From: Mariniflexile gromovii
GTDB taxonomy: Bacteria > Bacteroidota > Bacteroidia > Flavobacteriales > Flavobacteriaceae
Direction: 5' to 3'
Assembly: GCF_017814435.1 (NCBI RefSeq)
Contig: NZ_JAGJCB010000012.1
Coordinates: forward strand, 62,001-126,000
DNA length: 64,000 bases
In this document: in pieces, positions 37,487-46,529 of the stretch
Numbering within the stretch: position 1 is the first letter of the stretch
Layout of the letters: every line of letters starts with the position of its first letter
Program-made: the position numbers and the translations under genes
The notes under the pieces: model-generated
What the model was told of the DNA's origin: nothing
Seen by the model: only the letters and a program-made list of their open reading frames with translations
The model's database searches: none

Positions 37487-37930
37487 TTAAAGTTTTAAGT
37501 ATAAGTATTTCGTCTCATAATCTATAACAGCGTTCGATTTTTTTAAAATATCGGCACCAATAATACCATCAACGGGTTTAGATTTATGATTTATTAAAGC
37601 TGTATTCACATGCGTAAGATTAAAAAGTACCAAAACAACTTTATTAGTTTCCCATTTGCCAATTTTAAACTTGTTCTTGTTGGACATTTTCGTTTCCATA
37701 TTAATAGCACCAGCACCAGCAGCCATAATGTTAGAATCTTTTACCTTTAGATTAAAATTATCTACAGCTTCAAAACCCACACAGGAGTTTGATGCACCAG
37801 TATCTAAAATAAAACGGCCCTTTACACCATTTAAAGTGGCTTTTATTTCGAAATGATTGGTTTTGGTCCATCTTAATTTTACACGAATGTAGCCTTTATT
37901 AAGAAGAAATTCTTGAAGTGTTTCTGTCAT
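37487..37930 (-). CDS. Retropepsin-like aspartic protease, cytoplasmic
   Basis: 147 aa with no signal peptide or membrane segment. The catalytic motif is D43-T44-G45 in FILDTGASNS, with a later GIIGADIL (about 122-129), matching the single-domain retropepsin fold that works as a dimer. The 5' end overlaps the 3' end of the CHAT gene by 32 bp, so the two are translationally coupled. The substrate is unknown; the neighbouring membrane CHAT protein, anti-sigma-like protein or response regulator are candidates by context only. Confidence 0.87.
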   Translation of the reverse strand: MTETLQEFLLNKGYIRVKLRWTKTNHFEIKATLNGVKGRFILDTGASNSCVGFEAVDNFNLKVKDSNIMAAGAGAINMETKMSNKNKFKIGKWETNKVVLVLFNLTHVNTALINHKSKPVDGIIGADILKKSNAVIDYETKYLYLKL

Positions 37931-40481
37931 GCTTTCTATATTTCAGAACTAAAAATAACACAATCAAAGCTATTGCTATGCCAAAAAATACATAAAATAA
38001 AGTGAAATTTGGTTTTACGGGTTCAAGTTTGCCATAATATACAAAGGAGCTCCAATAATAAGGTGATTTTTTTGCATTGCTAATGGTTTCATTTTCTAAA
38101 TAATTCATTTTTGATTGATGATTTGCAAAAAATGCCGATTCTGTATCACTATAGTTCTTATAAAACGATTGCATAATCTGTGAAGTAGATAAATCGTTTA
38201 TTTGCCACAAAGTGAAAAGTAAATTTTCGGCACCAGCGTATTGAAACCCTCGTGCAATACTCATAGCGCCTTCACCTTTATAAAGTTTACCAACACCTGT
38301 TTCACAAGCACTTAAAACAACTAAATTGGGGTTTATATCTAAACTATACAATTCATTTAAATACATGGTCTCGTTGTAAAACGATAGGTTTGCAGGTGTT
38401 ATAAAATCGCCACCACTGGCATGGGTTGACAAATGCAAAATAGCATACTTTGCAGCATTTTTTATAAAGCTTTCTTTTGAAGCTTCGGTACTCATAAAAA
38501 TCTTAGAAGGCATTTCTTCTTCAACAGCATGGGCTTCATTTATAGAATACGTAAGCTTTTGGTTGCTATTTTCAAACACTGGAAAAAAACCGAGTAAACC
38601 ATTATTTTTATTGTTAACACTTTCTGATAGATAAAACTGGGCACTAGAATTGTAAGCAATGGTTTGGCTTTTAATTAAAAAAGGCATTTTTTCGAACGAT
38701 GTGTTGCTGGTTTTAGATGATAAAAGCGCTTCAAAAGGTATGAAATTCAACAGGCCATCTGGAATAATTATCACATTTTGATAGGCTAAAGTCGTGTTTA
38801 GTTTCAATACGTTGAAAATATTAAACGCTCTATTTGTATAGTTACCAATATCATTATTAATAATAGACGCATCATCAAATAAATGAATAAAACTGATGAT
38901 GTTTTGCTTGGTCTCATCGGTTAATTCGAAGCTTTCAACATGCATGACTTTTTCAGAAATAACAAATTGATAAACGTTATTTTTTCCATAGAAATACTCC
39001 ACTAAAACCGCTTTGTCTTTGCTTAATTTTTTCTGAATAGCTTCTAAAGTATATACGTTTTTATTTTCAGGATATTTCTTTTCAATGTTTGGTTTTAAAG
39101 CTTTTAACTGAAGGCTAATTGAAATTAATTTTTCGCTCAAAACATTCACTTTGTATGCCTGATTGTTACCAAGTTGTTCTTTTATAAGTAAGTTGGTATA
39201 ACGTTCTTGGGCTTTTATTAAGCTAAATTCTTTAACCAACAAACTGTCATTTGGATATTGTTGTAAACGCTTTTTTTTCTGATTTATGGATTTTAAAACA
39301 GAGGCTTTATTGTTTTCAGAATATTGAAATGCTTCAAACAACAACGCTTTGTTCTTGGTTTTTTGATAGTTGTAAAAAAGAATATCAATACACTTTTCAC
39401 TTCTTATTCTATTATCCGATTGGTTTCTGGTTTTGTTTTCTTGTGAAGTCCAGTTTTCTTGTAGTAATCCGGAAACATAAAAACTTAAATTATAACAATC
39501 CAACGCTTTTTTTGAATTGGTTTCCATAGTTGCCTGCAAATCGAAAATATCAATAAAGGTGTTTTCAGCATATAAATCGGTTTTGTTTGGCAAACTGTTA
39601 CCTTCAAGATTTGGCACTAATAATTTGATTGCTTTTTGCAAACTTTTTAAAGCTTCGTTTTTGTTTTGAAGAAGAAATTGAAGTTGTGCTTCTTCAACAT
39701 AAAACTTTGCTAAGTCCCTAGTGCTTAAATTAGCATTTTGAATATGACCTTTTGCTTTTTCAAATGAAATTAAAGCTTTTTGATAATCACCTTTTTGAAA
39801 TTCTATGATATAATTGGTTTTGAAATTTTCGAATTTTGAAGCTGTATTATTTAAAATAGAAGCTGCCTCAAAATTATTTAAAGCGATTAAGCTAGAAGCT
39901 TTGATACTTTGTAATAATGTTTTTTGATTGGTGTTATTGTTTGAAACTTTAAGAGCATCGTCAACAATTTTTAAAACCGTTTCATGTTTGCCAATAGTTT
40001 GGTACAGCTTTGCCAGATTAATGGCACCACTTATTTTGTGCTTGGTGTTCTTGCTTTTTTCAGCTAAAAAAATGTATTGGTTTATGGTGCTAACGGCATT
40101 GGTGTAATCGCCCGTTTTGGTATACAAATTGCCCAAAGGTTTTAGGCAACTTTCAATAATATCAAAATCGGAAAGTTTGGAAAGCTCGTTGTTGTTGAAA
40201 CGTTTTAAAGCATCTTCATAAGTGGAAATGGCTTCTTTTAATCTTGAATGTTCATCTAAATAATATCCCTTATGGCATTGTAAAAAAACGAGTGCCAATT
40301 GCTCATCTTTAGATTTTACATGGTTTTTAAAAGTTACTTCCTGCTGGGTTAACAGTTTTAACGAAGCGTCATTTTTATTGCTAATAAATGTTTCGGTAGC
40401 GGTGTAAATAGCTTCTTCCAAATTTTGGGAAAAAGAAATTCCGCAGATAAAAAAGAATAGAATAAAAATGGTTCTTATCAT
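37899..40481 (-). CDS. Membrane-anchored TPR-CHAT (caspase-fold) protein
   Basis: 860 aa. A signal peptide (MIRTIFILFFFICGISFSQ) and a C-terminal membrane helix (about 833-852, FGIAIALIVLFLVLKYRK) place the bulk of the protein in the periplasm with a short basic cytoplasmic tail. TPR-like helical repeats fill about 20-420. The CHAT domain (about 540-820) has the catalytic dyad at about His687 (LHLSTHASGGDF) and Cys726 (VVLSACETGVGK). CHAT proteins are proteases of the caspase clan. It overlaps the retropepsin gene and follows the PKD/barrel gene. A degenerate hairpin lies in the 103-bp gap upstream. Confidence 0.9.
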   Translation of the reverse strand: MIRTIFILFFFICGISFSQNLEEAIYTATETFISNKNDASLKLLTQQEVTFKNHVKSKDEQLALVFLQCHKGYYLDEHSRLKEAISTYEDALKRFNNNELSKLSDFDIIESCLKPLGNLYTKTGDYTNAVSTINQYIFLAEKSKNTKHKISGAINLAKLYQTIGKHETVLKIVDDALKVSNNNTNQKTLLQSIKASSLIALNNFEAASILNNTASKFENFKTNYIIEFQKGDYQKALISFEKAKGHIQNANLSTRDLAKFYVEEAQLQFLLQNKNEALKSLQKAIKLLVPNLEGNSLPNKTDLYAENTFIDIFDLQATMETNSKKALDCYNLSFYVSGLLQENWTSQENKTRNQSDNRIRSEKCIDILFYNYQKTKNKALLFEAFQYSENNKASVLKSINQKKKRLQQYPNDSLLVKEFSLIKAQERYTNLLIKEQLGNNQAYKVNVLSEKLISISLQLKALKPNIEKKYPENKNVYTLEAIQKKLSKDKAVLVEYFYGKNNVYQFVISEKVMHVESFELTDETKQNIISFIHLFDDASIINNDIGNYTNRAFNIFNVLKLNTTLAYQNVIIIPDGLLNFIPFEALLSSKTSNTSFEKMPFLIKSQTIAYNSSAQFYLSESVNNKNNGLLGFFPVFENSNQKLTYSINEAHAVEEEMPSKIFMSTEASKESFIKNAAKYAILHLSTHASGGDFITPANLSFYNETMYLNELYSLDINPNLVVLSACETGVGKLYKGEGAMSIARGFQYAGAENLLFTLWQINDLSTSQIMQSFYKNYSDTESAFFANHQSKMNYLENETISNAKKSPYYWSSFVYYGKLEPVKPNFTLFYVFFGIAIALIVLFLVLKYRKHDRNTSRISS

Positions 40482-40584: not shown

Positions 40585-42540
40585 TCAGAATTTCCAAATG
40601 GCGTAGAATTGCCAGTAGTTAAAATCTTTTTCAAAATTCATGATATAGCGCGCGCCTAAACTGGGGCCAATTCTAGCAAAACCTGCTGTAGCCTCAAACA
40701 ACAAACCTGTTCTTAAATTGGTAAATGAATTGGATACATTATTGGTGTCTTCTTTAGTGCTAATTACAGGGCCATCTGTGGTGTCGCCTTCAAATTGTTC
40801 AACTAAAACCGATTGCTCTTGTTTTTCGCTTAATGAAATGGTGTTTTGTAAACCAGCTCCAAGTCCTATATAATTATTCACATTATAGCGTAACAAAACG
40901 GGTACATCCCAATCAATATTTTCAAATGAATTACTTGTTGTGGTGCGTTGTAAGGTCCTGGTGCCTTGCGCATCTTGTATAAATTCTGTTGTTACATTGG
41001 TTTCGGAATCATAGTTATGAAAATTATTCATCAATTCCAACTGCCAATACCAACGATATGATTTATATGGAGACAAAGTAGCTCCAAAAAAGTAACTTTC
41101 AGAATTGTTTAAATCTGAAAAGGAATTCACCCCAACTTTTGCACCAATTGAAATCCCCGGTAGAAAACGTGTCGTGGAATAATTGGTAATAATCGGGTCG
41201 TTTTTATCAAAAATGATGGCAGTTTTACTTTTAGTTTTTTGTTTGTGAAAATCTTTGGCAAATTTGATGCTGTATTTTACAAACCCTTTGGTAGAATCAT
41301 ATTCCTTTACGTTTTTTTGTTCGCTTCCGGGAAGATAAATATTTTTAAAAGTGAAAATAGCCTGGGTATCGGTAAACGTGGTGTCTAAACAACTGTACAA
41401 CACTTCTTTTTTTGGGCAAATATCGCACTTGGGGTACATGTCCAAAACCTTTAGGGTCGATTTATCCAACATATCAGGAATATCTGTTTCTAACCGAATG
41501 GTACGTGCAGGACCTTCGCCATTATTTTGAAACTTGATTTTGTATTTCAAGGTTTTAAAACGTACCAAGCGGTAATTCATAAACGTACCGTTTGATGACA
41601 TTTTATTAGGATCGTGCGAGGTTACGATTTCCATTTCCATATCCTTTACTTTATGATTATCGTAATTGGCATCGGGCACATAAATACCACGCACCGAAAT
41701 AATGGCACTGGTATCTTTAAGCATTTCTGGCGTTGTTTTTAAACTAAAAAAGATGTTGCGTTCTTCTTTTGGTTTCATGTCATTAAACTCTAAAAGGCTC
41801 CAGTTTTTATAAAAGGCTTTAGAGTCTGCAATGGTTAATGGCAAATTGGTTTTTTCGGTAGAATCTTGCGCAAAAGTTCGAGCGTTTATGAAATCGTTAT
41901 TTGAACTTGCCAAATAGGTGCCATCGTCATCAATATTTCGGGTAAAAGCGAAGCCTTCGGCATCAATATTTTTTTCATTGTTATAGGTTCTGGTTTCGGT
42001 TAACTCGAAATTATTGGCTTTATATTGGTGTTCATTGTAAAACAGATATAATTTTCCGTTTGTAGTATAATCTTTTGGGTTTTTATAGCTTAATATAACT
42101 ACCATTTCTTCATCTGGAACGGGTTCGCGGTTGCGTTTTAGTATGAAATCTTCATCCATAGTAGCCACATCATTATACTCGGTAGTTATGTTGCTTATGG
42201 CAATTTTTTTAGGTCGGGTGGTTGGAGGTTTTCCGGTATCGTAATTATTGGTTGCCCATAATTTTACTTCGTACTCACCAGGTTTTTTATAAGTGTGTTT
42301 TGGGTTTTCTTGGGTGCTATAATGGCCATCGCCAAATTCCCAATAATGGGTGTAAAAGGCTTTTGGTGCACCCGCAATTTGGTTTAAAGCAGGTGTTTCG
42401 GGGGTGAAAATGACCTCGTTGCCATTGGTTGTGTTTTTAATGGTAGCAACGCGCGTTAGTGTATCGTTTACAATTAGTTTTTGGGCATAACTGTAAACAG
42501 TAATTAAAAATAAACATAGAAAAGAAAACCGTTTGTTCAT
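40585..42540 (-). CDS. PKD-domain protein with C-terminal outer-membrane-type barrel
   Basis: About 651 aa from ATG 42540 (MNKRFSFLCLFLITVYSYAQ), chosen because this is the signal peptide; an in-frame ATG at 42591 adds 17 residues in front of it. One PKD domain occupies about 40-110 (YWEFGDGHYSTQENPKHTY). A middle region has conserved-repeat-type beta text (NNGEGPARTIRLETDIPD) and a cysteine cluster CDICPKKEVLYSC. The last ~190 residues look like a small beta barrel (YFFGATLSPY, GARYIMNFEKDFNYWQFYAIWKF). Unknown function; probably surface-exposed. An ECF-type promoter lies at 42733-42763 with a 30-residue ORF between. Confidence 0.8.
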   Translation of the reverse strand: MNKRFSFLCLFLITVYSYAQKLIVNDTLTRVATIKNTTNGNEVIFTPETPALNQIAGAPKAFYTHYWEFGDGHYSTQENPKHTYKKPGEYEVKLWATNNYDTGKPPTTRPKKIAISNITTEYNDVATMDEDFILKRNREPVPDEEMVVILSYKNPKDYTTNGKLYLFYNEHQYKANNFELTETRTYNNEKNIDAEGFAFTRNIDDDGTYLASSNNDFINARTFAQDSTEKTNLPLTIADSKAFYKNWSLLEFNDMKPKEERNIFFSLKTTPEMLKDTSAIISVRGIYVPDANYDNHKVKDMEMEIVTSHDPNKMSSNGTFMNYRLVRFKTLKYKIKFQNNGEGPARTIRLETDIPDMLDKSTLKVLDMYPKCDICPKKEVLYSCLDTTFTDTQAIFTFKNIYLPGSEQKNVKEYDSTKGFVKYSIKFAKDFHKQKTKSKTAIIFDKNDPIITNYSTTRFLPGISIGAKVGVNSFSDLNNSESYFFGATLSPYKSYRWYWQLELMNNFHNYDSETNVTTEFIQDAQGTRTLQRTTTSNSFENIDWDVPVLLRYNVNNYIGLGAGLQNTISLSEKQEQSVLVEQFEGDTTDGPVISTKEDTNNVSNSFTNLRTGLLFEATAGFARIGPSLGARYIMNFEKDFNYWQFYAIWKF

Positions 42541-42620: not shown

Positions 42621-42713
42621 TTACAGTAAGTTAGATAAGATTACAGAAACATTTGCACATATAATTGATAATATTATGCAGACTATAATGAATATGATAA
42701 CAAACTTTTTCAT
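42621..42713 (-). CDS. Putative 30-residue hydrophobic peptide directly behind an ECF-type promoter
   Basis: ATG at 42713, TAA at 42621. The peptide is MKKFVIIFIIVCIILSIICA followed by NVSVILSNLL: a basic start, then a hydrophobic stretch with two cysteines. The ATG is about 12 nt after the predicted transcription start of the promoter at 42733-42763. It could be a small membrane peptide, a leader peptide controlling the PKD gene, or a chance ORF in AT-rich DNA. Confidence 0.4.
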   Translation of the reverse strand: MKKFVIIFIIVCIILSIICANVSVILSNLL

Positions 42714-42732: not shown

Positions 42733-42763
42733 TTATATCAACAAAGCAGGTGTTTTGTTACCC
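42733..42763 (-). promoter_or_regulatory. ECF-type promoter D (30-residue ORF and PKD gene)
   Basis: Minus strand GGGTAACA (42756-42763), 17-nt spacer, ATATAA (42733-42738). Same boxes and spacing as promoters A, B and C. The leader to the PKD gene at 42540 would be about 185 nt and contains the 30-residue ORF. Confidence 0.7.
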
Positions 42764-42780
42764 TTTTACTAAATTTTAGA

Positions 42781-42814
42781 AGACCTCACAGATTTTTGAA
42801 AACCTGTGAGGTCT
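42781..42814. other. AGACCT/AGGTCT hairpin
   Basis: AGACCTCACAG and CTGTGAGGTCT form a perfect 11-bp stem. It is near-identical in arms to the hairpin at 46583-46613. Located between promoter D and the lipoprotein-gene terminator. Confidence 0.6.
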
Positions 42815-42817
42815 AAA

Positions 42818-42847
42818 TAAAATCCCAGAAACTAAAGTCTCTGGGAT
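42818..42847 (-). terminator. Intrinsic terminator of the 324-aa lipoprotein gene
   Basis: ATCCCAGA and TCTGGGAT form an 8-bp stem (42822-42847), followed on the minus strand by TTTTATTT. It ends the transcript of the gene at 42915-43889. Confidence 0.7.
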
Positions 42848-42914
42848 AAAAAAAGTAGGTCAAGAATTGTGGCAAACCATGATTTTTAAGTAGGTTGTAA
42901 ACATGGACAGATGT

Positions 42915-43889
42915 TTATGGTAAACCATTGATTATGGTTGTAAGTTGTGCTTCGGTTACTACTGAGGTTTCGTTTTCGTTTATTGTGATGATGCCGTTTT
43001 CTACAATAGTTGCTGCTTTTATAGCGTATTTCCAATCGCCACCATCTTCTGAGATGAAAATAACATGACATTCTAATCCGATAGGAATTTGTCCGTAATG
43101 TTCGCTAAATAAACCTGTAACAGGATCGTAAGTATCTAGATTGGCAAGACCTGTATCTTCGCCATCATAAGATAAAAACACTGAAGAGTTTGTGTTGTTG
43201 TAACCTTCTGGAACATCAACTAGAATGGTTGTTTTTGGTCTTGGGTCATTATAGAATCTATCTACGTTAGACCATCCAAAACCGCCAATAAATGCGTAGT
43301 AATTGTTGCCTTCTGCAAAAACACCGCCTTGACCGTTTGCGCCATCACGTTTGTTTTCGGCCCAAGCAAGGTTTCCATCTTCATCAATAATACCATCCCA
43401 TAAAATCATATCGTTATCTGGACCGCCAGTTAAGGCCGCAGGGATAATTAATTGAAAGTCACAACTAGTATCTAAAGTAACGCCATTTTGTGTAGCTTCT
43501 ACAAAAAATTCGCCACCAGAAATTAATAGAGCCTTGTCGCCATTTGGTAAAATTCCCATAGTAGGTTTATTGGTGGTAAGCATAGTGCCTTTGTTAAATA
43601 TTTCAACAAATTCAATATCTACAACGCCAGTTACAGCATTTCCGTTTTTGGTTAAACAAGAACCATTGATGGTTATTTCTACACCGTTTTCTGATGTGAA
43701 TGTTGTAGAGCCATCTTCAGCATTAAACTGAAAATTTTGTGTAATGTTTTCTAAAGCCTGATCTTTAATGGCGTTGAATTCCTCTGCGGTTGCAGGAATT
43801 ACTAAATCGTCGTTGTCGTTTTTTGTACAGCTTGTAAATACTAAAGCAGTTACTAAAAGTGTTCCTAAAATGTGTTTTAAATTTTTCAT
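42915..43889 (-). CDS. Lipoprotein of unknown function, ECF-controlled
   Basis: 324 aa. Lipobox LVFTSCTKND (Cys about 21) followed by an Asp/Asn-rich tether, as in surface-exposed Bacteroidota lipoproteins. The rest is predicted beta-rich with four cysteines (NGSCLTKN, DTSCDFQL, GLECHVIF) and acidic patches. I do not recognise a family. It is monocistronic between an ECF-type promoter (43919-43949) and a terminator. It belongs to the set of secreted proteins beside the ECF sigma gene. Confidence 0.8.
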   Translation of the reverse strand: MKNLKHILGTLLVTALVFTSCTKNDNDDLVIPATAEEFNAIKDQALENITQNFQFNAEDGSTTFTSENGVEITINGSCLTKNGNAVTGVVDIEFVEIFNKGTMLTTNKPTMGILPNGDKALLISGGEFFVEATQNGVTLDTSCDFQLIIPAALTGGPDNDMILWDGIIDEDGNLAWAENKRDGANGQGGVFAEGNNYYAFIGGFGWSNVDRFYNDPRPKTTILVDVPEGYNNTNSSVFLSYDGEDTGLANLDTYDPVTGLFSEHYGQIPIGLECHVIFISEDGGDWKYAIKAATIVENGIITINENETSVVTEAQLTTIINGLP

Positions 43890-43918
43890 GATAATTTGGG
43901 TTTAATTGTTATTCATTG

Positions 43919-43949
43919 TTATATAAACGGGGCAACTATTTTGTTACCC
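43919..43949 (-). promoter_or_regulatory. ECF-type promoter A (324-aa lipoprotein gene)
   Basis: Minus strand GGGTAACA (43942-43949), 17-nt spacer, ATATAA (43919-43924), with the ATG about 30 nt downstream. Nearly identical to promoter B over about 35 nt, including a GGGTAAC/GTTGCCC near-palindrome. Confidence 0.75.
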
Positions 43950-43975
43950 TGTTTGGGTAATTATTTTTTATTTTT

Positions 43976-44563
43976 TTAATAAACTTGAAAGCCTAAAGCA
44001 ATGTATGGTTGTGCGAAATTTGGAACTGGCCCGCCTGTGCCATAAAAATTAGAACTTAAAAATTCTACGTTTCCTTGGGTTATTGGATAAGGGACATCTG
44101 TGTAGTTAGATTTTCTTAAAACCCTACCAATGGTTTGGTTTAACATGGTATATCCAGGTAAAATGGTTCTTTTTACCGTAATGATATCGCCAGAATTAAC
44201 TTGAACAGGTGTTCCTATAGTTTGGTAATCTAAACCAGCTTGAGAAAAAGTATGTACACCACTGTATGATGTGCCTGTAGTTGTATTGGTTACTTCCATG
44301 GTATAGCCGCCAGTGTAGGTGCTAGGGTTTTGATAACCTATGCTACAAATTTCTCCCGCAGCATTAATTTTAATTGAATATTCATGGGTTTCTAAATCCA
44401 TAGTTTCTATATCGTCGCAGCCATTAGCAGTAGAGTAAGCAGTTGTAATGGCAGAAGACACATAAGCAGTATCGCAAACATTATTTGCGGGATCGTTGTC
44501 GTTGTCGCAACTACTAATCAGCACTACAAAAAATGAAAATAAAAGTGATTTAAAAGTTTTCAT
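43976..44563 (-). CDS. Small lipoprotein of unknown function, ECF-controlled
   Basis: About 195 aa from ATG 44563 (MKTFKSLLFSFFVVLISSCD), lipobox ISSC. A longer in-frame start at 44605 would lie inside the promoter at 44589-44619, so it is rejected. The mature part is beta-rich with cysteines in NNVCDTAY, NGCDDIE and GEICSIGY. The ending (YIALGFQVY) resembles a terminal beta strand. No family recognised. One of three secreted products preceded by the same promoter type. Confidence 0.78.
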   Translation of the reverse strand: MKTFKSLLFSFFVVLISSCDNDNDPANNVCDTAYVSSAITTAYSTANGCDDIETMDLETHEYSIKINAAGEICSIGYQNPSTYTGGYTMEVTNTTTGTSYSGVHTFSQAGLDYQTIGTPVQVNSGDIITVKRTILPGYTMLNQTIGRVLRKSNYTDVPYPITQGNVEFLSSNFYGTGGPVPNFAQPYIALGFQVY

Positions 44564-44588
44564 GATTTTTAATTTAGGGGTTATACCA

Positions 44589-44619
44589 TTATATAAACAG
44601 GGCAACTATTTTGTTACCC
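44589..44619 (-). promoter_or_regulatory. ECF-type promoter B (195-aa lipoprotein gene)
   Basis: Minus strand GGGTAACA (44612-44619), 17-nt spacer, ATATAA (44589-44594), with the ATG 26 nt downstream. The flanks match promoter A at all but one position over about 35 nt, suggesting a duplicated regulatory segment. Confidence 0.75.
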
Positions 44620-44636
44620 TGTTTTGGTGATTTTTT

Positions 44637-45071
44637 TTATTGTTGAGGTTGACTGATGATTATTTTTGATACAATCGCATCACCTGAAGCAACTAAAGCA
44701 ATCATTTTATTAGCATAATCTTCAGAAGAGGCATAACCTTTTGCAGAGCCTGTTTCGGTTTCAACTTCCCAGAAATAGTTTCTGTTGCTTGTTTCAGATT
44801 TTAAAACCAAATAGCTTTGGATTTCGGTTCCTAAAACAATTTCTCCTGAGCTAGATAAAGCAATCATTTCTTTGGCGCTATCAAGTGAAAGGGATGTTCC
44901 TGAATAAATACCTTTGTCTGTTTCTACTTTCCAGTCAAATACTTGAGCAATGTTTTCTTTTGTAAATGTTACAACTTCAGTTGAAGTGTTAAGGGTCTTG
45001 TTTTCATTAGTAGCGTTTATATTTAATATTGAAAAAGCTACTGTTGCGATAATTAAAATTGATTTTTTCAT
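44637..45071 (-). CDS. Secreted protein with two internal ~40-residue repeats
   Basis: 144 aa. A signal peptide (cleavage near NINATN) is followed by two related units, about 47-90 and 97-141. The shared pattern is FxWxVET-x2-G-x3-G, then SxDxA-x2-MIALxxSGxxI (FDWKVETDKGIYSG against YFWEVETETGSAKG; KEMIALSSSGEIV against NKMIALVASGDAI). I know no family with this repeat. It is divergent from the ECF sigma gene and has an ECF-type promoter in the shared 136-bp space. Confidence 0.78.
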   Translation of the reverse strand: MKKSILIIATVAFSILNINATNENKTLNTSTEVVTFTKENIAQVFDWKVETDKGIYSGTSLSLDSAKEMIALSSSGEIVLGTEIQSYLVLKSETSNRNYFWEVETETGSAKGYASSEDYANKMIALVASGDAIVSKIIISQPQQ

Positions 45072-45131
45072 GATTTCTAAATTTTTATGGATTATTAAAA
45101 TTTTTGTTTCGTAATCTTTTCTGTTACACCC

Positions 45132-45162
45132 TTATATCAAAACCATTTAATAATTGTTACCC
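45132..45162 (-). promoter_or_regulatory. ECF-type promoter C (repeat-protein gene)
   Basis: Minus strand GGGTAACA (45155-45162), 17-nt spacer with a sequence unrelated to promoters A and B, then ATATAA (45132-45137). Conservation of boxes and spacing but not of the spacer argues for functional constraint. It lies in the divergent region beside the ECF sigma gene, 61 nt before the repeat-protein ATG. Confidence 0.75.
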
Positions 45163-45207
45163 TTTTATTTTAAAGTTTTTTTAAATTAGCAGTAAATACA
45201 AGGGTTA

Positions 45208-45789
45208 ATGAGCGAAAAAAAAATACATGAAGACCAAAAGTATATAGATGGATTGTTGAAAAACAACTCCTTTATTATACAAGCCATTTATGATAAGTTT
45301 GCGCCCAAGGTTATTAATTACATTAAACAGAATAGTGGCGATAGTGACCAAGCCCAAGACATTATACAGGACTCATTAATTACTATATATAATCAAGCAA
45401 ATGAAAAAAAACTGGAATTAACCTGTCCGTTTGATGCTTATTTCTTTTTACTATGTAAGCGCAAATGGTTAAATGAATTAAAAAAATCTTCAAATAAAGA
45501 GGTAACAATTAAAGAGGAGATCTTATATAAAGGTGACGACGCTCAAGAACTAGCTTTTGAAACTGATCTGTTTGGCGAAAAACAAGCCTTATTTACAGAA
45601 ATGTTCAATAAACTAGGAACCGCTTGTAAAGATTTGTTAACGGCAACCTTCAAAATAAAATCGATGGAAGAAGTTGCTGAAAGTTTAGGTGTAACCTATG
45701 CTTATGCTAGAAAAAAGAAATCTTTATGTATTGGTAAATTAACGGAGCTGGTTCAATCATCACCTAAGTTTAACCTACTTAATAATTAA
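45208..45789 (+). CDS. ECF-type sigma-70 family RNA polymerase sigma factor
   Basis: 193 aa with the two-domain ECF architecture. Region 2 (about 22-90, IYDKFAPKVINYIKQNS, QAQDIIQDSLITIYNQ) contacts the -10. Region 4 (about 125-180, GTACKDLLTATF, MEEVAESLGVTYAYARKKK) is the helix-turn-helix for the -35. No region 1 or 3. The downstream gene, 5 bp away, has a cytoplasmic N-terminus, one membrane helix and periplasmic TPRs, so it is the probable anti-sigma partner. The likely target promoters are the four GGGTAACA-N17-ATATAA sites at 42733-45162. Confidence 0.92.
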   Translation: MSEKKIHEDQKYIDGLLKNNSFIIQAIYDKFAPKVINYIKQNSGDSDQAQDIIQDSLITIYNQANEKKLELTCPFDAYFFLLCKRKWLNELKKSSNKEVTIKEEILYKGDDAQELAFETDLFGEKQALFTEMFNKLGTACKDLLTATFKIKSMEEVAESLGVTYAYARKKKSLCIGKLTELVQSSPKFNLLNN

Positions 45790-45794
45790 CCACT

Positions 45795-46529
45795 ATGGAC
45801 GAGCAAGATTATATATTATTTGAAAATTACATTTTAGAAGCACTTTCTGAAACTGAAAAAGATGCTTTTGAAACGCGATTGAAAACAGATTCAAAATTCA
45901 ACGAAAGTTTTAATACCTATAAAGAATTGTCATCGTTTTTAGAACATAAATTTGAAAATGAAGCCACTTCAGCAGCATTTCACAATAATTTAAAAAATAT
46001 TTCAAACTCCTATTTTGAAAAACAAAAAGCCCCTAAAAAAGTAATAAGTTTTAAACCTTGGCAATTTGCCATGGCAGCAAGTATTTTGTTATTAATTGGA
46101 TTCACCATATTTAACAACTTTTCAAGTCCGGTTTATGAAGATTTCGCAAATTATGATAGCATTAATTTAACCGTAAGAGGCGACCAAGATGCTTTATTAA
46201 AAACAGCTGAGAATGCTTTTAATTCAAAAGATTTTGCTAAGGCGGATGAAGCTTTTAAAAGTTTAATGCTTATGGATAAAGATAATACCGAATTGAAATT
46301 TTATAGAGCCATAGCCAGTTTAGAATTAAACAAATTTGATACAGCCGAAGGCTTATTAATAGGTTTAAGCAAAGGGCAATCGGTATATAAAAACAAGGCG
46401 ACGTGGTATTTGGCATTAAGCAAACTAAAACAAGAGGAGTATGATGATTGCTTGGAAATATTAAAAACCATTCCAGAAGATGCCGAAGATTATAAAGCAG
46501 CACAAAAACTTATTAAAAAGTTAGATTAA
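45795..46529 (+). CDS. Membrane TPR protein, probable anti-sigma partner
   Basis: 244 aa. A helical cytoplasmic N-domain (1-85, ENYILEALSETEKDAFETRL) resembles the start of anti-sigma factors but lacks a zinc HxxxCxxC motif. One membrane helix (about 90-108) leads to a C-terminal periplasmic region with three TPR-like repeats (about 125-240, AFNSKDFAKADEAFKSL, ASLELNKFDTAEGLL, LSKLKQEEYDDCLEIL). It is separated from the ECF gene by 5 bp. Inferred role: holds the sigma factor until a periplasmic signal, possibly through the TPR-CHAT protein, releases it. Confidence 0.82.
   Translation: MDEQDYILFENYILEALSETEKDAFETRLKTDSKFNESFNTYKELSSFLEHKFENEATSAAFHNNLKNISNSYFEKQKAPKKVISFKPWQFAMAASILLLIGFTIFNNFSSPVYEDFANYDSINLTVRGDQDALLKTAENAFNSKDFAKADEAFKSLMLMDKDNTELKFYRAIASLELNKFDTAEGLLIGLSKGQSVYKNKATWYLALSKLKQEEYDDCLEILKTIPEDAEDYKAAQKLIKKLD

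Follow-up and report, generated by a model that had tools for sequence, protein, structure and literature searches.

Four copies of a two-box element, GGGTAACA-N17-ATATAA (the first pattern searched), lie on the minus strand of a 64,000-nucleotide (nt) stretch of the Mariniflexile gromovii genome (contig NZ_JAGJCB010000012.1, positions 62,001 to 126,000; hereafter the window), close to a gene for an extracytoplasmic function (ECF)-type sigma factor of 193 amino acids (aa) (45208..45789, plus strand, assigned by Pfam and NCBIfam profiles). From the sequence evidence set out below, the four sites are taken to be promoters of a regulon controlled by this sigma factor (sigma 45208), with a probability of roughly 0.87. 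In the window, 0.01 exact copies of the motif were expected and none of 100 dinucleotide shuffles attained four. The four coordinates, the strands, the identical boxes and the 17-nt spacers given in an earlier note on this DNA were all right on rescanning.

Each site was also found, as that note had claimed, to be aimed at a gene for a secreted protein, a lipoprotein or a small open reading frame (ORF). Promoter D (45132-45162) is 60 nt from the ATG of s144, a 144-aa secreted protein, promoter C (44589-44619) is 25 nt from the ATG of l195, a 195-aa lipoprotein, and promoter B (43919-43949) is 29 nt from the ATG of l324, a 324-aa lipoprotein. Promoter A (42733-42763) is 19 nt from the ATG of a small membrane peptide (30 aa), and the PKD and CHAT genes (pkd and chat) lie beyond it. 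All four are exact copies on the minus strand.

The host assembly (4,275,638 bases in 52 contigs) was scanned for the exact motif with spacers of N14-20 permitted. This genome-wide scan, which the earlier note had proposed as a check, returned five exact matches, all with N17, namely the four in the window and a fifth (C1:289917) ahead of a distant lipoprotein gene. With one mismatch allowed, the informed pattern gave seven matches in the host genome against none in the control, and these were the four window sites, a site inside the sigma gene, the distal lipoprotein site and C12:393518. The first pattern with one mismatch gave two more genome matches, at C12:377966 and C13:38158, both with GGGAAACA. 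The statement that the window holds no other copy of the box pair thus stands for exact boxes and fails for near matches, as the site in the sigma gene, AGGTAACA-N17-ATATAA at 45500-45530 on the plus strand, differs from the first pattern at one position.

The consensus drawn from 109 distinct sites is GGGTAACAAWW-N11-YTK-ATATAA, and the variants met were AGGTAACA, ATTTAA, ATGTAA and ATATCA. An AAC-containing -35 box is typical of ECF promoters. The scoring matrix contains A-rich blocks at -18..-14 and -7..-3, counted from the first G of the sites, which resemble UP elements. A TGTAA-like conserved stretch is also found behind the -10 box, at positions 34-40 after the first G; it is most marked ahead of s144 and lies close to where transcripts would be expected to begin.

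The sigma 45208 product matched Pfam Sigma70_r2 (PF04542) with 25.3 bits (cut-off 24) and NCBIfam TIGR02937 (sigma70-ECF) with 47.9 (cut-off 42.9) over residues 25-180, both above threshold. No Pfam family was matched in region 4 at E 0.001, though the TIGR02937 match extends over that part, and the match to solved ECF sigma factors was structurally weak (SigL, E 0.0022). The nearest named relative, with 95% identity, is from Mariniflexile fucanivorans. Five of 295 genomes drawn from the class matched the sigma factor at 1e-30, one of them from outside the family and with 39% identity.

The distribution of the motif links this gene to the sites. The box pair, with spacers of N12-22 permitted, was found in 136 copies in 74 of 80 named loci, which are the best 80 of 365 relatives and carry sigma genes 70-95% identical to that in the window. 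All 136 copies are on the strand opposite the sigma gene and 135 have a 17-nt spacer, and the reversed pattern was not found. Among 199 genomes of the family the exact motif was present in 28: of the 27 genomes that have a sigma orthologue (identity of 50% or more) 24 carry it, compared with 4 of the 172 that have none. These four motif-bearing genomes without the sigma gene do not exceed chance expectation, as the reversed control yielded 8 matches in the same 199 genomes. One of the four, G089, is only 82% complete and its site precedes a homologue of l324, so its sigma gene may lie in the part absent from the assembly.

This distribution bears on whether the sites instead belong to a different ECF sigma factor as its promoters, or serve a DNA-binding regulator as operators, with the adjoining sigma gene a mere neighbour. 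Further ECF genes are indeed present in the host genome and its relatives, and the tie between sigma 45208 and the DNA is drawn from sequence comparison. However, the motif follows the sigma orthologue, although 123 of the 172 genomes that lack it contain some other homologue at E 0.001 (with a match in 150 of all 199 genomes). Two boxes at a constant distance of 17 nt, with short leaders and A-rich blocks upstream, are moreover the anatomy of a promoter. A different regulator is therefore considered very unlikely.

The sites are also kept in front of orthologous genes. Sites within 400 nt upstream of a gene were assigned to it, with a matrix cut-off of 18. An exact site was found upstream of 50 of 61 s144 genes, 65 of 86 l324 genes, 6 of 7 l195 genes, 13 of 75 pkd genes and none of 75 chat genes, and only 2 of the 136 exact sites had no assigned gene. 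Matrix sites of at least 18 were found upstream of 61/61 s144, 75/86 l324, 7/7 l195, 23/75 pkd and 0/75 chat genes, though the matrix was built from 110 distinct sites of the same loci and the exact counts are thus safer. Shuffled upstream regions gave no matrix sites in any gene class.

Recent copying of a single promoter, or spread of a mobile repeat, would also produce a set of identical boxes. The spacers of the 43919 and 44589 sites are indeed nearly identical (AAATAGTTGCCC[C/T]GTTT), but those of 42733 and 45132 are unlike this pair and unlike each other, and sites are kept upstream of orthologous s144, l324 and l195 genes in many genera. A common simple duplication of the sites was rejected on these grounds, the B/C pair excepted, and as an account of all the boxes this explanation is scarcely credible. 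The earlier note had likewise argued from differing spacers against a simple duplication, and in this it was correct, but it had paired A with B, whereas the near-identical pair is B and C. For that pair a local duplication is likely from the spacer letters. The likeness of the two spacers suggests that the duplicated promoter may have arrived with the 195-aa lipoprotein gene, which is rare among relatives (7 N-termini in 80 loci).

Nine exact sites were found outside the locus in sigma-carrying genomes, and eight of these precede ORFs that begin, as judged by eye, like lipoproteins, secreted proteins or membrane proteins. Two of the distal targets, a 192-aa lipoprotein and an outer-membrane protein whose end resembles OmpA, each recur in two genera; the others are two further lipoproteins, a short protein with a membrane segment at its N-terminus and a repeat protein whose site is 199 nt off. 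The ninth site (in L126) looks like a chance match. The outer-membrane protein, found in L122 and L120, is 585-589 aa long, and its OmpA-like C-terminus was read by eye.

The 192-aa lipoprotein is the distant target in the host, where the C1:289917 site sits 27 nt ahead of the ATG of its ORF. All five good orthologues among the 27 sigma-carrying genomes have a matrix site ~30 nt before the ATG, four of them strong (24.7-28.8) and the fifth degenerate (15.0; GGGTACCA). The site itself led to two orthologues (G000, G083), and three (G162, G019, G072) were found independently of the motif, one of them being that with the degenerate site. Two weak homologues with 25% identity were left out of the count.

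Besides the origin of the matrix, several observations weigh against the assignment of the sites to sigma 45208 or limit its extent. The Fisher p value of 1e-23 for the association of motif and sigma gene overstates the independence of the genomes, as they share ancestry. Three of the 27 sigma-carrying genomes have no exact pair: G096 has none, G058 has ATATATAA and G156 has a spacer of N16. In G186 the sole copy of the motif is far from the sigma gene. Eleven of the 86 l324 genes have no matrix site, and neither do 52 of the 75 pkd genes (none of at least 18 within 400 nt), therefore control of the PKD and CHAT genes is not general. A search for a wider regulon in the host genome with three mismatches allowed gave 713 matches, against 852 in the reversed control, so that no larger set of targets is apparent from it. 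Nevertheless, the claim in the earlier note that sigma 45208 drives the sites is supported by the way in which the motif tracks the sigma orthologue across genera and by the orthologous targets, and sigma 45208 presumably recognises GGGTAACA-N17-ATATAA sites.

Autoregulation from a site upstream of an ECF sigma gene is common but not universal. None of the 136 exact sites in the 80 loci is directed towards the sigma gene. A TAnnTT[A/C]G box was found ahead of the sigma gene in 29 of 29 upstream regions examined, out of 81, and no -33 box matching that of the primary sigma factor was identified upstream of the sigma gene. In the window the box is TAAATTAG (45182..45189, plus strand), the probable promoter of the operon formed by the sigma gene and its candidate anti-sigma gene, which is one letter off TAnnTTTG, the -7 consensus reported for the Bacteroidetes primary sigma factor (PMC9723704). 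As no exact site points towards the sigma gene and this box is present, the operon is probably driven by a housekeeping-type promoter.

The additional site in the sigma gene (45500..45530, plus strand) covers sigma codons 98-108 and lies 264 nt before the ATG of the candidate anti-sigma gene. It fits the informed pattern without a mismatch, and hits at this position were obtained in other genomes as well. In a set comprising the window and 80 orthologues (81 sequences), the internal -35 box RGGTAACA is kept in 81/81 and an ATnTA -10 box at the right spacing in 76/81. Codon use was compared at positions where a residue is common to at least 60% of the orthologues, which gave 161 testable sigma codons. 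Only five of these use a single codon, namely E98 (GAG, 75/75), V99 (GTA, 81/81), T100 (ACA, 81/81), S107 (TCT, 74/74) and F188 (TTT, 68/68), and the first four fall within the two internal boxes. In five neighbouring genes (62-78 sequences each) there were 2 single-codon positions among 1,200 testable codons in all. GGTAACA is also retained at the internal position in all seven orthologues of 52-60% identity. It is thus quite likely, from this codon conservation, that the internal site is a weak sigma-dependent promoter that produces the anti-sigma transcript.

The ATnTA form is missing from 5 of the 81 internal sites, and the matrix scores of the internal sites are low (median 6.3, range -10.1 to 19.7, compared with at least 22.9 for exact sites), both of which count against a promoter at this position. 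The low scores, together with the fact that the internal copy encodes a conserved Val-Thr stretch, would fit an alternative in which the site is no promoter and its letters are retained because of the protein sequence, an effect of codons or translation, or an RNA element. However, GAG, GTA, ACA and TCT are invariant wherever the residue is present although they make up only 27-33% of the codons for their residues across the sigma gene, and the third base stays G even in orthologues with Gln, Gly or Lys at residue 98. The spacing of the internal boxes is also the same as in the intergenic promoters. Conservation for reasons other than promoter activity is therefore unlikely, and the low matrix score indicates that the internal promoter should be weak, as the coding constraint would impose.

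Distant relatives of the module provide a further comparison. These are 23 loci (L232-L251 and L087-L089) around sigma homologues of 26-34% identity, of which 16 have a homologue of the tetratricopeptide repeat (TPR) candidate anti-sigma protein on the sigma strand, 16 have a divergent CHAT homologue and two more have a CHAT homologue on the sigma strand. Their intergenic sites are of the form GGGTAAC-N15-17-GAAC, with seven divergent sites in five loci compared with 0.1 expected from shuffles, and the ATnTA type was never found. An internal -35 box is present in 6 of the 23 distant sigma genes, with GAAC in register in 6/6, whereas GAAC is found at this position in 0/81 of the window group. 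The internal -10 type thus matches the intergenic type in both groups, which speaks for a promoter inside the sigma gene and suggests that the internal and external -10 boxes change together between branches (ATATAA/ATCTAA and GAAC). The joint change is weakened by the 17 of 23 distant genes that have no internal site, and by conserved Glu-Leu codons that could yield GAAC, a point in favour of a coding origin of the letters. In L087 and L088, unlike in the window group, a sense GGTAACA is found 32 nt before the sigma start, and direct autoregulation of the sigma gene is possible in this branch.

The gene that follows the sigma gene (45795..46529, plus strand) encodes a 244-aa membrane TPR protein with an N-domain (residues 3-75), a membrane helix at ~89-109 and TPRs at 132-243. 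The TPR_19 profile was matched with 7.5e-8, and a single hydrophobic 19-mer was found, at residue 91. Matched against the NCBIfam anti-sigma family NF052375 the protein gave E 2.3e-5 and 24.5 bits, below the cut-off of 100. The AlphaFold2 model has a pLDDT of 77.7, with values <50 for residues 77-109. A structure search with this model gave no match at E 0.001, and the 50 of 1,169 matches listed were TPR or similar helical-repeat proteins, thus the N-domain is without structural confirmation. In all 26 orthologous loci L061-L086 the gene is directly behind the sigma gene on the same strand. From this gene order, the predicted helical N-domain with one membrane segment and TPRs, and the sub-threshold NCBIfam match, it is probable that the TPR protein is the anti-sigma factor of sigma 45208, as the earlier note had proposed, and release of the sigma factor would then take place at the membrane.

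A TPR-CHAT protein of 860 aa is encoded beyond promoter A (37899..40481, minus strand). It matches CHAT (PF12770) with 7.1e-40 and has a signal-peptide-like N-terminus and a C-terminal membrane segment; hydrophobic 19-mers lie at residues 1 and 828, and the CHAT part itself has a weaker one at 570. From this topology the CHAT domain would lie outside the cytoplasm. H687 and C726, presumably the CHAT His-Cys dyad, are invariant in 24/24 aligned CHAT sequences. Comparison with solved structures gave 30 matches, all over the TPR part. Between the CHAT gene and promoter A is a gene for a 651-aa secreted protein with profile matches to PKD, DUF7619 and DUF7849 (40585..42540, minus strand). In the 26 loci L061-L086, where the sigma factors are 52-91% identical to that in the window, divergent PKD and CHAT genes are found in 25 and l324-like genes in 24, and the lone locus without PKD and CHAT genes is a 9.6-kb contig. 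No cas families were found among the seven module proteins that were profile-scanned, a search that did not extend to their neighbours or to other parts of the genome.

Together these features would fit a mechanism in which the membrane-bound TPR anti-sigma protein (45795) holds the ECF sigma factor (45208) until an envelope signal releases it. The free sigma factor would read promoters with the -35 box GGGTAACA, a 17-nt spacer and the -10 box ATATAA, and would turn on s144, l195, l324, the 30-aa membrane peptide, perhaps the PKD and CHAT genes behind the peptide, and the distant lipoprotein. It would also use the weaker internal copy at 45500-45530, and the anti-sigma transcript produced from this site would shut off the response. 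More speculatively, the TPR-CHAT protein, placed outside the cytoplasm, could act as the activator, a protease that cuts the anti-sigma protein, but this role is tentative and is given rather less than an even chance. More doubtful again is the combined proposal of a module family in the Flavobacteriaceae in which an extracytoplasmic, membrane-anchored, caspase-like TPR-CHAT protease cuts a TPR anti-sigma factor, the sigma gene holds its own target promoter as a brake, and the -10 boxes change together.

The s144 (44637..45071), l195 (43976..44563) and l324 (42915..43889) genes, all on the minus strand, encode proteins with no Pfam family at E 0.001. A lipobox (LISSC) was seen by eye in l195, and C21 of l324 is invariant in 26/26 sequences. 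In VIA-align, residues 49-213 of the l324 model resembled GAIN and ZU5 domains at Z 10.2 to 9.0 (rmsd 3.2-3.6, 128-147 residues), which is barely over what the tool regards as common, and an axonemal chain ranked among them at Z 9.6. The model is predicted to contain a ZU5/GAIN-like domain followed by a beta-sandwich, which is unexpected for a bacterial lipoprotein. The letters HFS or HLT indicate self-cleavage, and neither was seen by eye in residues 49-213 of l324. A cyclodextrin glycosyltransferase fold, to which 11 of 11 Foldseek matches at E 0.001 pointed, was not trusted as the TM-scores were 0.1-0.2.

The ORF read behind promoter A encodes the 30-aa single-pass membrane peptide MKKFVIIFIIVCIILSIICANVSVILSNLL (42621..42713, minus strand). 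Related ORFs of 28-33 aa were found behind the equivalent site in other genera, and some Lacinutrix and Olleya loci have a different short ORF there. Eleven of these peptides, picked by their start letters and length from a larger number of such ORFs, were aligned; pairwise differences by codon position were 877, 670 and 436 for positions 3, 1 and 2, respectively, and codons with a single difference gave 297 synonymous and 261 non-synonymous changes. This is mild support for the ORF being coding.

A literature search gave no description of this module among the matches listed, which is not a claim of its absence from print. What may be of wider interest is that many genera keep promoter, regulon, candidate membrane anti-sigma factor and candidate protease together as a single compact unit, whose sigma coding sequence apparently has a feedback promoter embedded in it. 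The two-box promoter also seems sufficiently specific for use as a reporter of the activating signal. Only 6% of Bacteroidetes ECF sigma factors are reported to go with a class I anti-sigma domain (PMC7406223).

Parallels to separate parts of the module were found in known systems. The SM6 sigma-ECF promoters of Flavobacterium psychrophilum are likewise an ECF-type promoter class in the same family, and were mapped there for genes that include one sigma/anti-sigma pair, but GTAAC is not present in the main text on the SM6 promoters (PMC9723704). SigP of Porphyromonas gingivalis is, like the sigma factor proposed here, a Bacteroidetes ECF sigma factor governing cell-surface functions, but is described as controlled via PorXY, and the target motif suggested for it has other letters (PMC4800418). 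The sigH/rshA pair of Corynebacterium glutamicum is similar in its arrangement, as the report describes sigma and anti-sigma genes cotranscribed from housekeeping promoters and an additional sigma-dependent promoter, experimentally established, that lies within the sigma coding region and drives only the anti-sigma gene (PMC3489674). The proposed internal promoter would feed the anti-sigma gene in the same way, as negative feedback, though here it is deduced from codon conservation rather than from 5'-end mapping. The components also differ, RshA being the anti-sigma factor of a heat and oxidative stress sigma factor (PMC3489674), whereas here the candidate is a membrane TPR protein and the boxes are GGGTAACA and ATATAA.

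The closest likeness to the proposed protease is in the CASP system (Csx29-Csx30-CASP-sigma) of type III-E CRISPR. According to the account of that system, it is target-RNA-bound Cas7-11 that activates Csx29 (PMC10028731), whereas the CHAT protein of the window begins like a secreted protein, with a signal-peptide-like sequence, and carries a membrane segment at its C-terminus, and a role in cleavage would be by analogy. Nonetheless, both loci combine a TPR-CHAT protein (here a candidate protease) with an ECF-like sigma factor and its inhibitor (here a candidate) and contain sigma sites, here putative ones, and the type III-E trio indicates that such a protease can relieve the inhibition of an ECF sigma factor (PMC10028731).

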